Shown: positions 39,216 through 59,845 of the stretch, one piece after another
Position numbering within the stretch: position 1 is the first letter of the stretch
How the letters are laid out: the number at the start of each line of letters is the position of its first letter
From: Proales similis
Lineage: Eukaryota; Rotifera; Eurotatoria; Ploima; Proalidae
Assembly: GCA_019059635.1 (NCBI GenBank)
Contig: JAGVRJ010000015.1
Location: 744,001 to 808,000, forward strand
DNA: 64,000 bases
Direction of reading: 5' to 3'
The notes under the pieces: generated by a model
What the model was told of the DNA's origin: nothing
The model's database searches: none
The model's input: the letters and a program-made list of their open reading frames with translations, nothing else
Position numbers and translations under genes: made by a program

Positions 39216-41541
39216 TCACAGCTGGTTCTGGAGCGTTGACTGCTGCCCTGGCTGTGTTGTTGGTTGGGGCTCTGGCAGTTCTGGTTGCTGCTCGCCTGGT
39301 GGCTGCTGTTGTAGCTCGTCTTGTGGCGGCTGTTGTGGTTGAGATTCGGCGATTGAAAGGTCAATTTGGTCCAAATTGAGCTGAGATACGGACGAAGTGT
39401 GAGAGATGGCGGCTACTACTGTTGGCTCTTTTTGCTTGTCGACGGGCACTGCCGACTGACTTTTGGCCAGCGCCTGCTCGCACGGGCATTCGAAGTGAAC
39501 GCAATGGAACACGTCGTTGGCCGTGTTCTGGGTGCCTGTGATTTTTATGTACGACACTGGCCTGGGAGTGAAGGTGACCACTTGCCACGACCTTATGGCC
39601 AGAACAGAAAAGTGACTTGCACTGTGATAGGGGCCTTGATCACGGACACTTACCGGCAAGCTTCGTTGCGCTTGTCCACTGCCAGCTGCCATTCGGTTTG
39701 ATCGAGCGACGTCTCGATGTAGTAGCTGTAGGCGCGGCTGTCGCAGTCCCAGAGCAGCATTCTAAAGCGGCAGCGGGTTCGACACGGGGAAGCGTGTGAG
39801 AAGGAGAGGAGGGCACTCACTTCATCGAGCCGATCAGATAAGGCTGAGCGAGCTGGATTTGAATGCAGCCGTTGCCCAGCTGGTGACACGTGTAGCCCGA
39901 GTCCCAGTCGTAGCTCGTGTAGTCCGAGTTGATCAGCGAGTTTCTCGATCGGCTCACTCCCTCCAGTACGAGTGCGTGGTTGGCTATGCTTGCCACATTG
40001 TAATGCGGAACTAGACGCGATTGGCTGTTAGAGAGACACGTTGCAGAGGCCCATAGGACAAGAATAGTCACCGATTAGATCGTTGAATAGCTCGTAGCGC
40101 TCGGTGGTGTAGCGCACCTCGATCGAGACCAAGTGGAAGATTCGATTGGCCGTGTTGCGAACGCCGGTCACTTTTATGTACCTGCAACAGGATGGCATGG
40201 AACGCGTTAGAGCGCCATGCAGAGGCTTTTTTTTGGGGGGTAGAGGCGACTTGCCTGGCAACCAGCGGCTTGAACACCAGATTCTGCCACGAGCGGCAAA
40301 AGTACTTGGAGTAGTCGACGATCCGGGTCCAGTCTTGCTCGTCCATTGACACTTGGACTGTGTAGGAGTAGGAGCTGCGAGGAGGCCTGATCAGAGGCGA
40401 TCGGATGCGAGCCAGAGCGACGACTTACCGCAAGTCCTTGTCCCAGAGTAAAAGTTTGATTTGATTAAAAATGGTCGGCTCGCCGAGCTTGACCACAATC
40501 GAGTTCTGGTTGGTCTCGTCGATCGGATGGTAGGAGAAGCCGCGGTCAAAGTCGTAGTTGTGCGTGTCGCCGTCGAGCAGGGCGGACTTGAACTCGCCCT
40601 TGACGACTATAGCCCGGAAGCTGCTGGTGGCCACGTTCTGGTTCGGATAGAGCTGGCCGCGATGCTTCAGCGACATGTTCTTCTTTTCGAATTTCACTCT
40701 GATCGCGTCGAGTATGAGATTGGGCTCGAGCAGGGACGAGTCGCGCACTTCGTTCAGCAGCTCGTCCATGTCCATCAGCGGCAGGCGGATTTTGTCCAGA
40801 ATCTCTGGTCTGGTCTCGGTGGGCGAGTTGCGCTCGTGCCATTTGGCCACCAGACGAAATATGTCGATTTCTTTGGCAAAGAACGAGTCGCGTTCAATGA
40901 TCACCGCCAGACTCTCCTGAAATTTCCCTTGCCGGTTAGAAGAGCTCACGGGCGAGCAGGAGACAGGCGCACTTACACTGGAGAGGCCCAGAAGCTGATC
41001 GGACCGGAGCAGGGCAGTCGAGTTCTGGTCGATGTACTGCGCACAAGTGTCCTCGAGCGAACGCAGCTGGTAGAGCCGGGCCATGTCGTAAATGCTGCAC
41101 ACGTTGTCAATGCTCAGAATGGACTTGAGGTAATTGGAAATCGACTGAAGCAGGTCGGTGAGGCCGTACTGGTGCACGAGGATCATGAGATCGATGAGCG
41201 ACTCTTCGCTCTCTTTGCGCAGCTGCAGCTTGCCCGTGTAAATGTACTCGAGCAAGAGCCTGAACGCGTGCGCTTTCACCTCTCTCACTTCGATTCGCTC
41301 TTGGCCCGTCTCCATCATTCCGCCGTAGAGGAGCGCGCGAAAGTATTCGCACCTGGCCGCCAGTATGATGCGATGCGCGGCCAACTCTTGTCCTTCGACC
41401 ACGAACTTGACGTCGCAAAAGTCGTTCTTGTCGAACAGGTTTCCTTTTTTGGTGGCACAGTTTCACTTTAAGCACGCAGCCAGACAAGCGATTTATTCGC
41501 GTACCAATATCGTCAGAGAGACGCTTCACATGCTCAACCAT
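39216..41541 (-). CDS. BTBD9: BTB/POZ domain-containing protein 9
   Basis: Starts MVEHVKRLSDDIG at 41541. A roughly 60-bp intron is followed by the BTB domain (DKNDFCDVKFVVEG, AHRIILAARCEYFRALLYGG, YIYTGKL) and a BACK domain (ENVCSI-like VCSIYDMARLYQL, FAKEIDIFRLVAKW, RLPLMDMDELL). Two discoidin-like (F5/8C) domains follow: VKGEFKSALLDGDTHNYDFD with SYHPIDE, then WDSGYTCHQLGNG with QLAQPYLIGSMK and NTANDVFHCVHFEC. The C-terminal tail is rich in Gln and Pro, and the stop is at 39216-39218. The residues match BTBD9 closely along the whole length. BTBD9 acts as a Cullin-3 substrate adaptor and is linked to sleep, dopamine and iron phenotypes in flies and mammals. No truncation is seen. The long antisense frame at 40461-41471 is a shadow. 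Confidence 0.95.
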
Positions 41542-46363: not shown

Positions 46364-46369
46364 TTTATT
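46364..46369 (-). promoter_or_regulatory. poly(A) signal of the ParA-like gene
   Basis: TTTATT (minus-strand AATAAA) 22 bp beyond the ParA-like stop. A canonical animal 3' end supports this being an expressed nuclear gene. Confidence 0.55.
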
Positions 46370-46390: not shown

Positions 46391-47749
46391 TCACAGTTCG
46401 AGACGATTGAGAATTTTAATGAGCGCCTGTTCGAAATGAGTCGAGGAGTCGTCGCCGCCGCCGGACGCAGATTGGCTCGATGAAATTTGCAGTGGCCGCC
46501 TGCTGCCTGGGTCGGCGTTCAGATGATCGTAGAGCGAGACGCGAATAGAAGGCGACGCCGATCGCGGCTGTCTGGGCGATGTGGAGAACGAGTTGCGAGC
46601 CGAGTCGCTTGGATGCAGGCTGTTTAGGTTGGATGCGCTCATGTTGAATTTGGCTTTGTTGAGGTCGACAGATCCAACGCCGTGGGCACTGGCATTTCTG
46701 ACCGATGCAAACGAGCACTTGCCAGTTTGAGAGGCGGCGCTCTGTTTGCGCAAGAACAGCGAGCGGCTGGCGTGAACCGCTTCACGCACCGACTCGTTCT
46801 GGCTGAGCTCGTTTTGCATGTCGATGACGTACTCGTTGAGGAAACTTTTCAAATCGTTGACTTGTCGAGTGGGCAGACGAAACGCGTCCGGACTGTCCTT
46901 GTAAACGTCCAGGGCCGTGTTCCAGTCGAATTGGGTGTCTCGCTCGCTCGGTCGACGCCTGAGCGCCAGACGAACGATTAAACTGATCACCGGTGGTTTG
47001 AGGTTGTACTGTTTGCATCTGTAGTAGAAGCTTAGCTCACGGTGGTAGTAGAATGCCGGATTTGTCCAACGCACGTGCTCGTGCACAAGACCGAACGTGT
47101 GCTGGAATCGGCCGCGCAGCAGCTCTTCGTCGCTCATCGGCAGTATGAGCTGGAACGAGGCGGCCAGAGCGATCTCGGTCAGAATGGAGTAGGCCGAGTT
47201 GGTGTCGATGAAAACGGCCAGCTGAATGCCCTTTCTCTCGCCTACTTTGGCAATGAGGTCGCGCAGGCTCAGCGTGACACGCTTCCAAGCCAACGAGCTC
47301 GACTTGAACAGGTTGGCCTGGTTCTCGCGCCTCTGCTCCAGCGAACGGCTCACTAGCTCGATGCTCGAGTCGCCGCACAGCAAGTAGACGTTGCGGTTCA
47401 AGCACTGGTTGTACTTGCTCACGTTTATGAGGAACTGGCGCGGATCGAGCTCGTCCAACAGGCCGCTGGTGGAAGTCTTGAGGTCGAGATAGCCGGCCAG
47501 CGTTTTGGCCAGTTTTCGCTCGCCAATCTGAATCTGCTCGCACTTTTGGCTGCACACAAGACCGACCGTGTCTTGCTTCTCGCCGCCCAGCAGAGCGTAA
47601 GATATGTCCGCCTGCGGACACATGTCCACTACAAGCACGGTTCGGTCCGCATGTCTGGACGCGTATTTCAGCGCCAGGTGGTAAGCCAGCGTTGTTTTTC
47701 CGCTTCCGCCCCGGCTGTTCCAAATTGCATAAGAACCGAGCAGAGGCAT
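46391..47749 (-). CDS. ParA/MinD-type P-loop ATPase, intronless
   Basis: A 452-residue single-exon frame. I chose the start MPLLGSYAIWNSRGGSGKTTL at 47749 because the deviant Walker A of ParA proteins normally sits about ten residues from the N-terminus. An upstream in-frame ATG at 47881 runs through a TG repeat and is unlikely. Residues 13-19 are RGGSGKT, where the ParA signature lysine (KGGxGKT) is Arg. Walker B-type VLVVDMCPQADIS lies at residues 38-50, and LAVFIDTNSAYSILTEIALAA (Walker A'-like) followed by LILPMSDEE fits the rest of the ParA fold. Then comes an alpha-helical extension. The last 100 or so residues are Ser/Pro/Arg-rich and disordered, eukaryotic in style. ParA proteins segregate plasmids, chromosomes or cargoes in bacteria. 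No animal function is known to me for this type. The gene lacks introns while all its neighbours have them, so bacterial origin or retroposition are both open. Confidence 0.75.
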   Translation of the reverse strand: MPLLGSYAIWNSRGGSGKTTLAYHLALKYASRHADRTVLVVDMCPQADISYALLGGEKQDTVGLVCSQKCEQIQIGERKLAKTLAGYLDLKTSTSGLLDELDPRQFLINVSKYNQCLNRNVYLLCGDSSIELVSRSLEQRRENQANLFKSSSLAWKRVTLSLRDLIAKVGERKGIQLAVFIDTNSAYSILTEIALAASFQLILPMSDEELLRGRFQHTFGLVHEHVRWTNPAFYYHRELSFYYRCKQYNLKPPVISLIVRLALRRRPSERDTQFDWNTALDVYKDSPDAFRLPTRQVNDLKSFLNEYVIDMQNELSQNESVREAVHASRSLFLRKQSAASQTGKCSFASVRNASAHGVGSVDLNKAKFNMSASNLNSLHPSDSARNSFSTSPRQPRSASPSIRVSLYDHLNADPGSRRPLQISSSQSASGGGDDSSTHFEQALIKILNRLEL

Positions 47750-59094: not shown

Positions 59095-59200
59095 TGTTGA
59101 ATGGGTCGGGTATCGAACCCGGGACCTCCGGCAGACGGCAACCGCCCAAAAGGGCCATTATTGGCCAAAAGGTTCAAGCAAAGTGGCAAAAACAGACAGG
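59095..59200 (-). repeat. tRNA-derived repeat or tRNA relic
   Basis: The minus strand contains GGTTCGATACC (plus-strand 59109-59119), a good pol III B box, within CCGGGTTCGATACCCG, which folds as a T-arm. About 50 nt before it is an A-box-like TGGCCAATAATGG. I could not pair an acceptor stem or find a clean anticodon arm, so this is not an intact tRNA. A tRNA-headed SINE or a decayed tRNA fits. The extent is uncertain. Confidence 0.35.
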
Positions 59201-59774
59201 AGTCTCGCTTGTATAGCGGGCTGTCTATCACTTGCTACTCACAAACGCTATCCCACTACTGATTGACGCGGGAGCTTTGATCTGCTGCCTTTCGGCCCTG
59301 GACCGGTGCACTCCTCTTTAAGTAACCTGGTCGCTTCGGACTCCTCCAAAGCGGCGCATATTGACGCCAAGCTTGGTGCGGACGTCTGTTCAACATAGCG
59401 CAGTGATAGACAGTTGGCCCCACCACCAAACCATCCTCGAACCTGGCCTCCAGTAGCTGGATTACAGGAAACTGCTAAATTTCCCGGCCGACTGTCTTTT
59501 CGCTTATTCGCCTATTTGAAACATGCTTGTGAATGCATCGCAATTCAACTCATTTGCATTCAGGCTTCATACGTTGACAGTCGCAATGTCTTTGCATCTT
59601 TCTTTCACTTTTACCCGTCTAAAACTTGCTCTCTCTCTCTTTCTCGTTCATTCAAATGAAAAGTTCAAGGTGCCATGACGTTGGAGGTTCAGAATTTCTT
59701 GGCGAAATTCAACCAGAACGAGCTGAGACGATTTGGGCCGCCATAAAATTTGAATTAGAGCGTACAAGTTGCAA

Positions 59775-59845
59775 GCACTGGTGGTTCAGTGGTAGAATGC
59801 TCGCCTGCCACGCGGGCGGCCCGGGTTCGATTCCCGGCCAGTGCA
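59775..59845 (+). tRNA. tRNA-Gly: tRNA-Gly (anticodon GCC)
   Basis: A 71-nt tRNA with acceptor stem GCACTGG/CCAGTGC and discriminator A at 59845. The A box is TGGTTCAGTGG and the B box GGTTCGATTCC. The anticodon stem CTCGC/GCGGG carries the loop CTGCCAC, with GCC at 59807-59809. It has no intron and a 3' CCA is not encoded, as expected for a eukaryotic nuclear tRNA. A run of five T directly after it (59846-59850) is the pol III terminator. It decodes GGC and GGU. Confidence 0.96.

Follow-up and report, generated by a model that had tools for sequence, protein, structure and literature searches.

An intronless ParA-type ATPase gene in the rotifer Proales similis, probably from an animal branch of the family, with two changed active-site residues

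The gene and its features

The stretch of DNA analysed here, a window of 64,000 bases from the genome of the rotifer Proales similis, carries on its minus strand an intronless gene for a ParA-type ATPase, whose protein is referred to as P0001. The protein is almost certainly a member of a ParA-type subfamily marked by D-x-C-P-Q instead of the usual D-x-D-P-Q, and its relatives in rotifers, mussels and corals probably make up an animal ParA-type family with a single animal origin. We regard this finding, an animal branch of a prokaryotic ATPase family in which two mechanism residues are changed, as real and surprising.

The gene is a frame of 452 codons (1359 bases) running from ATG to TGA, and its features are listed below in window coordinates.

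46391..47749, minus strand: intronless coding frame of 452 aa, ParA/Soj-type ATPase (P0001); from Pfam, phrog_164 and the single genome match
47690..47722, minus strand: residues 10-20, deviant Walker A WNSRGGSGKTT, with R13 at the signature-Lys place and K18 and T19 retained; from the alignment
47612..47626, minus strand: residues 42-46, D-M-C-P-Q, with C44 at the place of the Soj catalytic Asp; from the profile alignment to 6iub and 8jmj
47606..47608, minus strand: residue D48, a rotifer-specific switch from Asn; from the alignment
47369..47383, minus strand: residues 123-127, L-L-C-G-D, a subfamily motif; from the alignment
47198..47212, minus strand: residues 180-184, F-I-D-T-N, with Walker B Asp 182 retained; from the alignment
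46451..46729, minus strand: residues 341-433, Ser-rich insert preceding the last helix, predicted to be disordered (22 of 93 residues are Ser)
46547..46564, minus strand: residues 396-401, RSASPS, a short motif inside the insert; from row comparison
46397..46450, minus strand: residues 434-451, conserved last helix of the ParA fold; from model confidence, structural alignment and conservation
46364..46369, minus strand: AATAAA, candidate polyadenylation signal; from the sequence

An earlier note on this DNA had described the 452-residue frame, and the strand is added here. The motifs RGGSGKTT (residues 13-20), VLVVDMCPQ (38-46) and FIDTNSAYSIL (180-190) were found, the first two at the residues given there, the frame is free of introns, and the AATAAA indeed starts at base 22 past the stop. 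The first frame of the plus strand over the same bases is interrupted by several stops. When the 4-kb region was resampled 200 times (order 1), no stop-free run exceeded 361 codons (mean 166), as compared to the 452 observed, and a chance origin of the frame is ruled out because homologs exist. The start at MPLLGSY agrees with homolog N-termini (MPLEGSY). A search of the assembly (32,716,893 bases in 15 contigs, with the window on contig 15) gave a single match to the gene. Its third-position GC is 72%, akin to that of the nuclear-receptor (70%) and helicase (74%) frames of the window, where two other frames have 59% and 55%; the composition is therefore no sign of foreign origin.

Assignment to the ParA family

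Two Pfam families exceeded their cut-offs, AAA_31 (E 9.1e-10) and CbiA (E 4.3e-07), and phrog_164, named 'ParA-like partition protein', covers residues 7-338 (E 2.7e-22). No NCBIfam model reached its curated cut-off: ParA_partition scored 35.7 of 180 bits, BcsQ 18.5 of 157.85 and RepA 25.6 of 348.45. The rows called rotifer-type below are 42 in number (the window protein, P0002-P0038, P0040-P0042 and P0068), twelve of which bear a rotifer name, the rest being placed by similarity. The ParA/Soj fold is present, and the Walker A Lys and Thr and the Walker B Asp (K18, T19 and D182) occur in all rotifer-type rows with letters there. Two family characters are without a match in P0001, the signature Lys of KGGxxK[S/T] and the catalytic Asp.

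A search of 5.8 billion proteins returned 38 matches at E <=0.01, among which the 12 with an organism name were all rotifers with 43-52% identity; the weakest match, P0039, groups with mussels in the 101-row tree described below. A profile search returned 304 matches, and the 120 best, which were listed, contained Mytilus and then named bacteria; five Mytilus proteins outrank the best named bacterial protein, P0069, and one Mytilus fragment stands below it. With a profile built from mussel-type and other rows, 3877 matches were obtained at E <=1e-10, and the corals Oculina, Pocillopora and Porites were among the 120 listed. Several of the animal relatives are encoded on contigs of great length (99.9 Mb for Mytilus californianus, 38.5 Mb for Oculina and 16.3 Mb for Adineta vaga), and more than one family protein per species was present in Oculina, Mytilus coruscus and M. 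edulis among the matches listed. The search of predicted viral structures was weak, with one match at E <=0.001. No listed title among openly licensed papers described an animal or eukaryotic ParA family, most of the 'para' matches being other words, and passages of PMC7159879 concern bacterial systems.

The fold class is shared with the known eukaryotic P-loop families NUBP and GET3, which the earlier note had set aside, and our results agree with it. NUBPL (PF10609) scored 11.9 bits against a cut-off of 27.1, the GET3/ArsA family PF02374 was absent among the 11 Pfam families at E <=1, and the NUBP- and GET3-type matches of the genome lie at other loci, the GET3-type one on contig C5. GET3 was also absent among the 50 structural matches listed, an absence that carries no evidential weight. 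Bacterial contamination, likewise not expected by the earlier note, is contradicted by the single genome match, the contig of 1.2 Mb, the animal genes and metazoan signal recognition particle (SRP) RNA in the window, and the rotifer homologs. That the protein belongs to one of these known families or comes from a contaminant is extremely improbable.

The earlier note had also spoken of a Ser-rich tail, a description that the structural comparison overturned. In the predicted model, segment 341-427 has a predicted local distance difference test score (pLDDT) below 50, and the last helix has 76 in residues 431-440, 95 in 441-450 and 91 in 451-452. The structural alignment to Helicobacter pylori Soj (6iub) extends to model residue 452, opposite chain residue 263, and residues 434-451 are conserved across the rotifer-type rows; the Ser-rich stretch forms an insert, predicted to be disordered, that precedes the last helix. 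The RSASP motif occurs in 7 of 43 rows (P0001-P0004, P0006, P0007 and P0037) and R-x-x-SP variants in five more, the region being missing in many others.

A second ParA-type gene, of another subfamily, was found in P. similis (L106:1204-2716, plus strand; G000:C6 about 269764-271276). It has the canonical KGGVGKTT and DADPQ, an N-terminal extension and an AAA_31 match at E 1.1e-18, and shows 35% identity over 48 residues to the gene of the window. The match is split over two frames, and the second gene therefore probably contains at least one intron.

Phylogeny and origin

In a maximum-likelihood tree of 62 rows (12 rotifer, 8 mussel-type, 12 coral-type and 30 prokaryotic, two of the last being IMG/VR contigs), animals and prokaryotes were split with support 100/98 and the rotifers formed one group (100/100). 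The split (100/98) and the rotifer clade (100/100) were obtained again when only the 20 named animal rows were compared with 38 prokaryotic rows, the four coral rows being held together at just 83/50. A preliminary quick tree with 101 rows, which included 16 of the 42 rotifer-type rows, gave the animal/prokaryote split a support of 99; P0106, labelled bacterial, and P0039 fall among the mussels in it. The earlier note had offered two readings, a little-studied animal ParA family, which the 100/98 split upholds, and horizontal acquisition, which appears likely only in the deep past. The nearest relatives are rotifer-type proteins, followed by those of mussels and corals. The animal family probably had one old bacterial origin, the direction from bacteria to animals being deduced from the wide occurrence of relatives among prokaryotes, as judged by record titles.

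A recent or independent transfer from bacteria into rotifers is distinctly improbable, even though titles of papers report gene acquisition by bdelloids and the rotifer clade has a long stem (1.34 changes per column in the 62-row tree and 1.39 in the named-only one). Brachionus, Proales and the bdelloids form one clade (100/100), and the rotifer gene is therefore not recent; Brachionus and Proales both belong to the Monogononta. Joining the rotifers to the nearer bacterial clade was rejected by the approximately unbiased test (p-AU 0.018), in which two groupings only were compared, with groups picked after the earlier trees and the farther bacterial clade left out. The rank of the five Mytilus proteins above P0069 among the best 120 of 304 matches, with the one fragment below it, also speaks against such a transfer.

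Several points weigh against a single animal origin, and they are gathered here. A tree with the rotifers outside all other animals fits equally well (p-AU 0.53), a point that also counts in favour of a transfer into rotifers. Only 5 of the 12 rotifer rows (including that of the window), 3 of the 8 mussel-type and 4 of the 12 coral-type rows in the 62-row tree are named by organism. P0001 is a long branch, and the named-only tree carries a warning of long branches meeting. Animals are thinly sampled and the attachment point of the rotifers is not fixed by the trees; the search words and profiles contained the motif, which biases the searches toward rows that keep it. The rotifers may have acquired their gene separately, long ago, from a donor close to the stem that the sampling missed.

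Changes at the active site

The active site was compared in an alignment of 257 rows, in which 6 of the 42 rotifer-type rows are without the signature-Lys region. The earlier note had reported Arg for the signature Lys, and this holds well beyond P. similis: all 36 rotifer-type rows with letters have another residue at this place, Arg in 33 and His in 3, and Lys stands there in 208 of 209 rows outside the rotifers. The sole non-rotifer row with letters that is without it, P0059 (Mytilus edulis, 376 aa), has an N-terminus that resembles a faulty gene model. The Walker A Lys (K18) is present in every row with letters, and the ATP/Mg residues 18, 19, 42 and 182 are unchanged in every rotifer-type row with letters.

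The second and older change, absent from the earlier note, is the replacement of the catalytic Asp by Cys, which is found in 253 of 254 rows with letters, the exception being a Tyr in P0109. The profile alignment places C44 of the family opposite the D of H. pylori Soj (6iub, IDFDPQ) and opposite the A of 8jmj (IDFAPQ), a D41A mutant according to the structure titles. For Soj D44A, MinD D40A and MipZ D42A, published accounts describe ATPase mutants in a dimeric or dimer-locked state (PMC9178275, PMC13246001 and PMC7229837). Since the catalytic Asp is replaced by Cys across the subfamily, ordinary ATP-driven cycling cannot be assumed.

The rotifers differ from the rest at four more places, F23 to Y, N48 to D, P185 to S and G328 to H, and P0001 shares Y23, D48 and S185 and has Ser at 328. 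Position 48 is Asp in 39 of the 40 rows counted as rotifer (the exception being the mussel-placed P0039) and Asn in 213 of 214 others. Cys 125 is found in all 41 rotifer-type rows with letters, but 20 of 34 bacterial loci have a different residue there. C44 and C125 might form a metal or redox site.

These changes bear on the possibility that the protein is a pseudoenzyme scaffold, in which ATP would be structural only and no ATP-driven dimer would form, the signature Lys and catalytic Asp being gone. The change of both mechanism residues in all rotifer-type rows with letters and the long rotifer stem agree with such a scaffold, and the retention of the four ATP/Mg residues and of a positive charge at the signature place (Arg in 33 of 36 rows) argues against it. 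We consider it rather unlikely, ranking next after the slowly hydrolysing dimer switch set out below.

Prokaryotic relatives

ParA-type proteins sort DNA and other cargo in bacteria and archaea. The rotifer profile, run against prokaryote genomes, yielded 27 pattern matches, none of them a relative; a second scan with a bacterial profile found 117 relatives, 80 of which were kept, and 34 of these loci went into the 101-row tree and the 257-row alignment. A search with the Ectopseudomonas protein matched 153 plasmid records at E <=1e-30 (the 12 listed are of 4.5 to 15.5 kb, with 42.6-42.9% identity to the query) and three phages at E <=1e-15. In Pseudomonas phage phi297 (L091:3959-5011) the subfamily gene lies directly behind a CI-like repressor, a usual site of prophage accessory genes. 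The enterobacterial plasmids NZ_CP113171.1 (L092) and NZ_CP023572.1 (L090), of 4.5 and 5.5 kb, also carry it, and the smaller one encodes a Rop protein; a solo gene on a small plasmid beside Rop looks unlike a partition system. No Pfam family was shared by more than two of 47 flanking proteins, chosen from 19 bacterial loci, and no ParB-type family was seen (in the 25 of 82 families listed), nor was a ParB annotated in the two plasmids, whose gene tables are incomplete, or the one phage stretch. Six family members had no match in PADLOC; its matches among the 47 neighbours (27 families, 25 listed) were obtained without a control set and were not used as evidence.

An ordinary positioning ATPase like ParA, MinD or McdA, with partner-stimulated hydrolysis and gradients on DNA or membrane, would fit the full ParA fold with its last helix, and McdA functions without the signature Lys according to a 2022 review (PMC9178275). 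The replaced catalytic Asp and the lack of ParB-type genes in the neighbourhoods just described speak against this reading, which seems doubtful at best.

Other features of the window

The neighbours of the gene include frames for a nuclear receptor, a dynein motor, a seven-transmembrane receptor and a helicase. The metazoan SRP RNA lies at 59191-59488 on the minus strand, and a tRNA-Gly(gcc) at 59775-59845 on the plus strand, with about 290 bases between them. Two long frames overlap on opposite strands, 40425-41402 (minus, 325 aa) and 40461-41471 (plus, 336 aa), and the latter had no Pfam match at E <=0.001.

Proposed mechanism

We tentatively favour a slowly hydrolysing, ATP-locked dimer that would act as a switch or tether over a fast motor of the ParABS type, a preference drawn from residue patterns and held at somewhat less than even confidence. 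The gene would have been gained by animals long ago from bacteria, most simply once. The protein would bind Mg-ATP through the retained K18, T19, D42 and D182 and form an ATP sandwich dimer. With Cys for the catalytic Asp, hydrolysis would be slow or partner-dependent and the dimer therefore long-lived, and it could act at a cellular surface as a tether or a switch for docking, not as a motor for fast partition. In rotifers, R13 might take over the cross-dimer contact of the signature Lys, with Y23, D48 and S185 changed alongside; relatives are able to live without this Lys, since BcsQ has Arg and McdA has Ser there. The disordered insert, with its RSASP motif in some rows, might be a place for regulation. 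The explanation taken as a whole, a D-x-C-P-Q animal branch with an old bacterial gain, an ATP-locked dimer switch or tether and a changed interface in rotifers, has in our judgement an even chance of being correct.

Some considerations count against the dimer switch. The residue is Cys and not Ala, and hydrolysis could be normal with another residue acting; replacement of the signature Lys could just as well keep the dimer from forming.

Wider significance

According to the 2022 review (PMC9178275), ParA/MinD-type ATPases are unique to bacteria and archaea, a view in conflict with the conserved branch of rotifers, mussels and corals. The family also offers a natural experiment on two mechanism-defining residues, as the subfamily is without the catalytic Asp and the rotifers are also without the signature Lys. 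Rotifers can be cultured, and the function is therefore testable.

A bolder and improbable reading is that animals domesticated a solo bacterial ParA, borne by mobile elements and possibly defensive, as an ATP-locked dimer switch, that it expanded in corals and mussels, possibly with a role in immunity or symbiosis, and that rotifers rebuilt its interface (Lys13 to Arg, Asn48 to Asp) for a new sensing of ATP. It is hinted at by the relatives beside a phage CI-like repressor and a plasmid Rop gene, where ParA partition is unexpected, and by the occurrence of two or more family proteins within single species of some corals and mussels; these are hints only.

Comparison with known systems

As compared to Soj, a ParA of type Ib (H. 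pylori, 6iub and 8jmj), the rotifer protein shares the whole fold, the Walker A Lys, the first Asp of DxDPQ and the Walker B Asp, but has Arg for the signature Lys, Cys for the catalytic Asp, a disordered insert before the last helix and no known ParB/parS. MinD has a C-terminal amphipathic membrane-targeting helix; the last helix of P0001 aligns with the end of Soj and therefore looks like part of the fold.

McdA, which positions carboxysomes, has Ser at the signature place where P0001 has Arg, and a D38A mutant of it is in the PDB (structure title). McdA has a strong ATPase without the signature Lys, and BcsQ has Arg at this place (RGGVGTT) with the second Walker Lys changed too (Table 1), and both are counted with the ParA/MinD family all the same (PMC9178275). 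BcsQ thus has the signature-place Arg in common with P0001, whereas it is bacterial, occurs in complexes with BcsR and BcsE (titles) and is altered at the second Walker Lys.

A further comparison is with the D-x-C-P-Q proteins themselves. Those of prokaryotes, phages and plasmids (the phrog_164 matches; Ectopseudomonas P0077, phi297 and NZ_CP113171) belong to the same subfamily by sequence and tree and have C44 in common with the rotifer protein; unlike the rotifers, they keep the signature Lys, which is present in each of the 42 aligned loci from bacteria and IMG/VR, and the A4-type members, of about 355 aa, are without the long insert. The mussel and coral members (Mytilus P0043, P0051 and P0054; Oculina P0146 and P0169; Pocillopora P0182; Porites P0210) stand on the same animal side of the tree as the rotifer protein and have retained the signature Lys.
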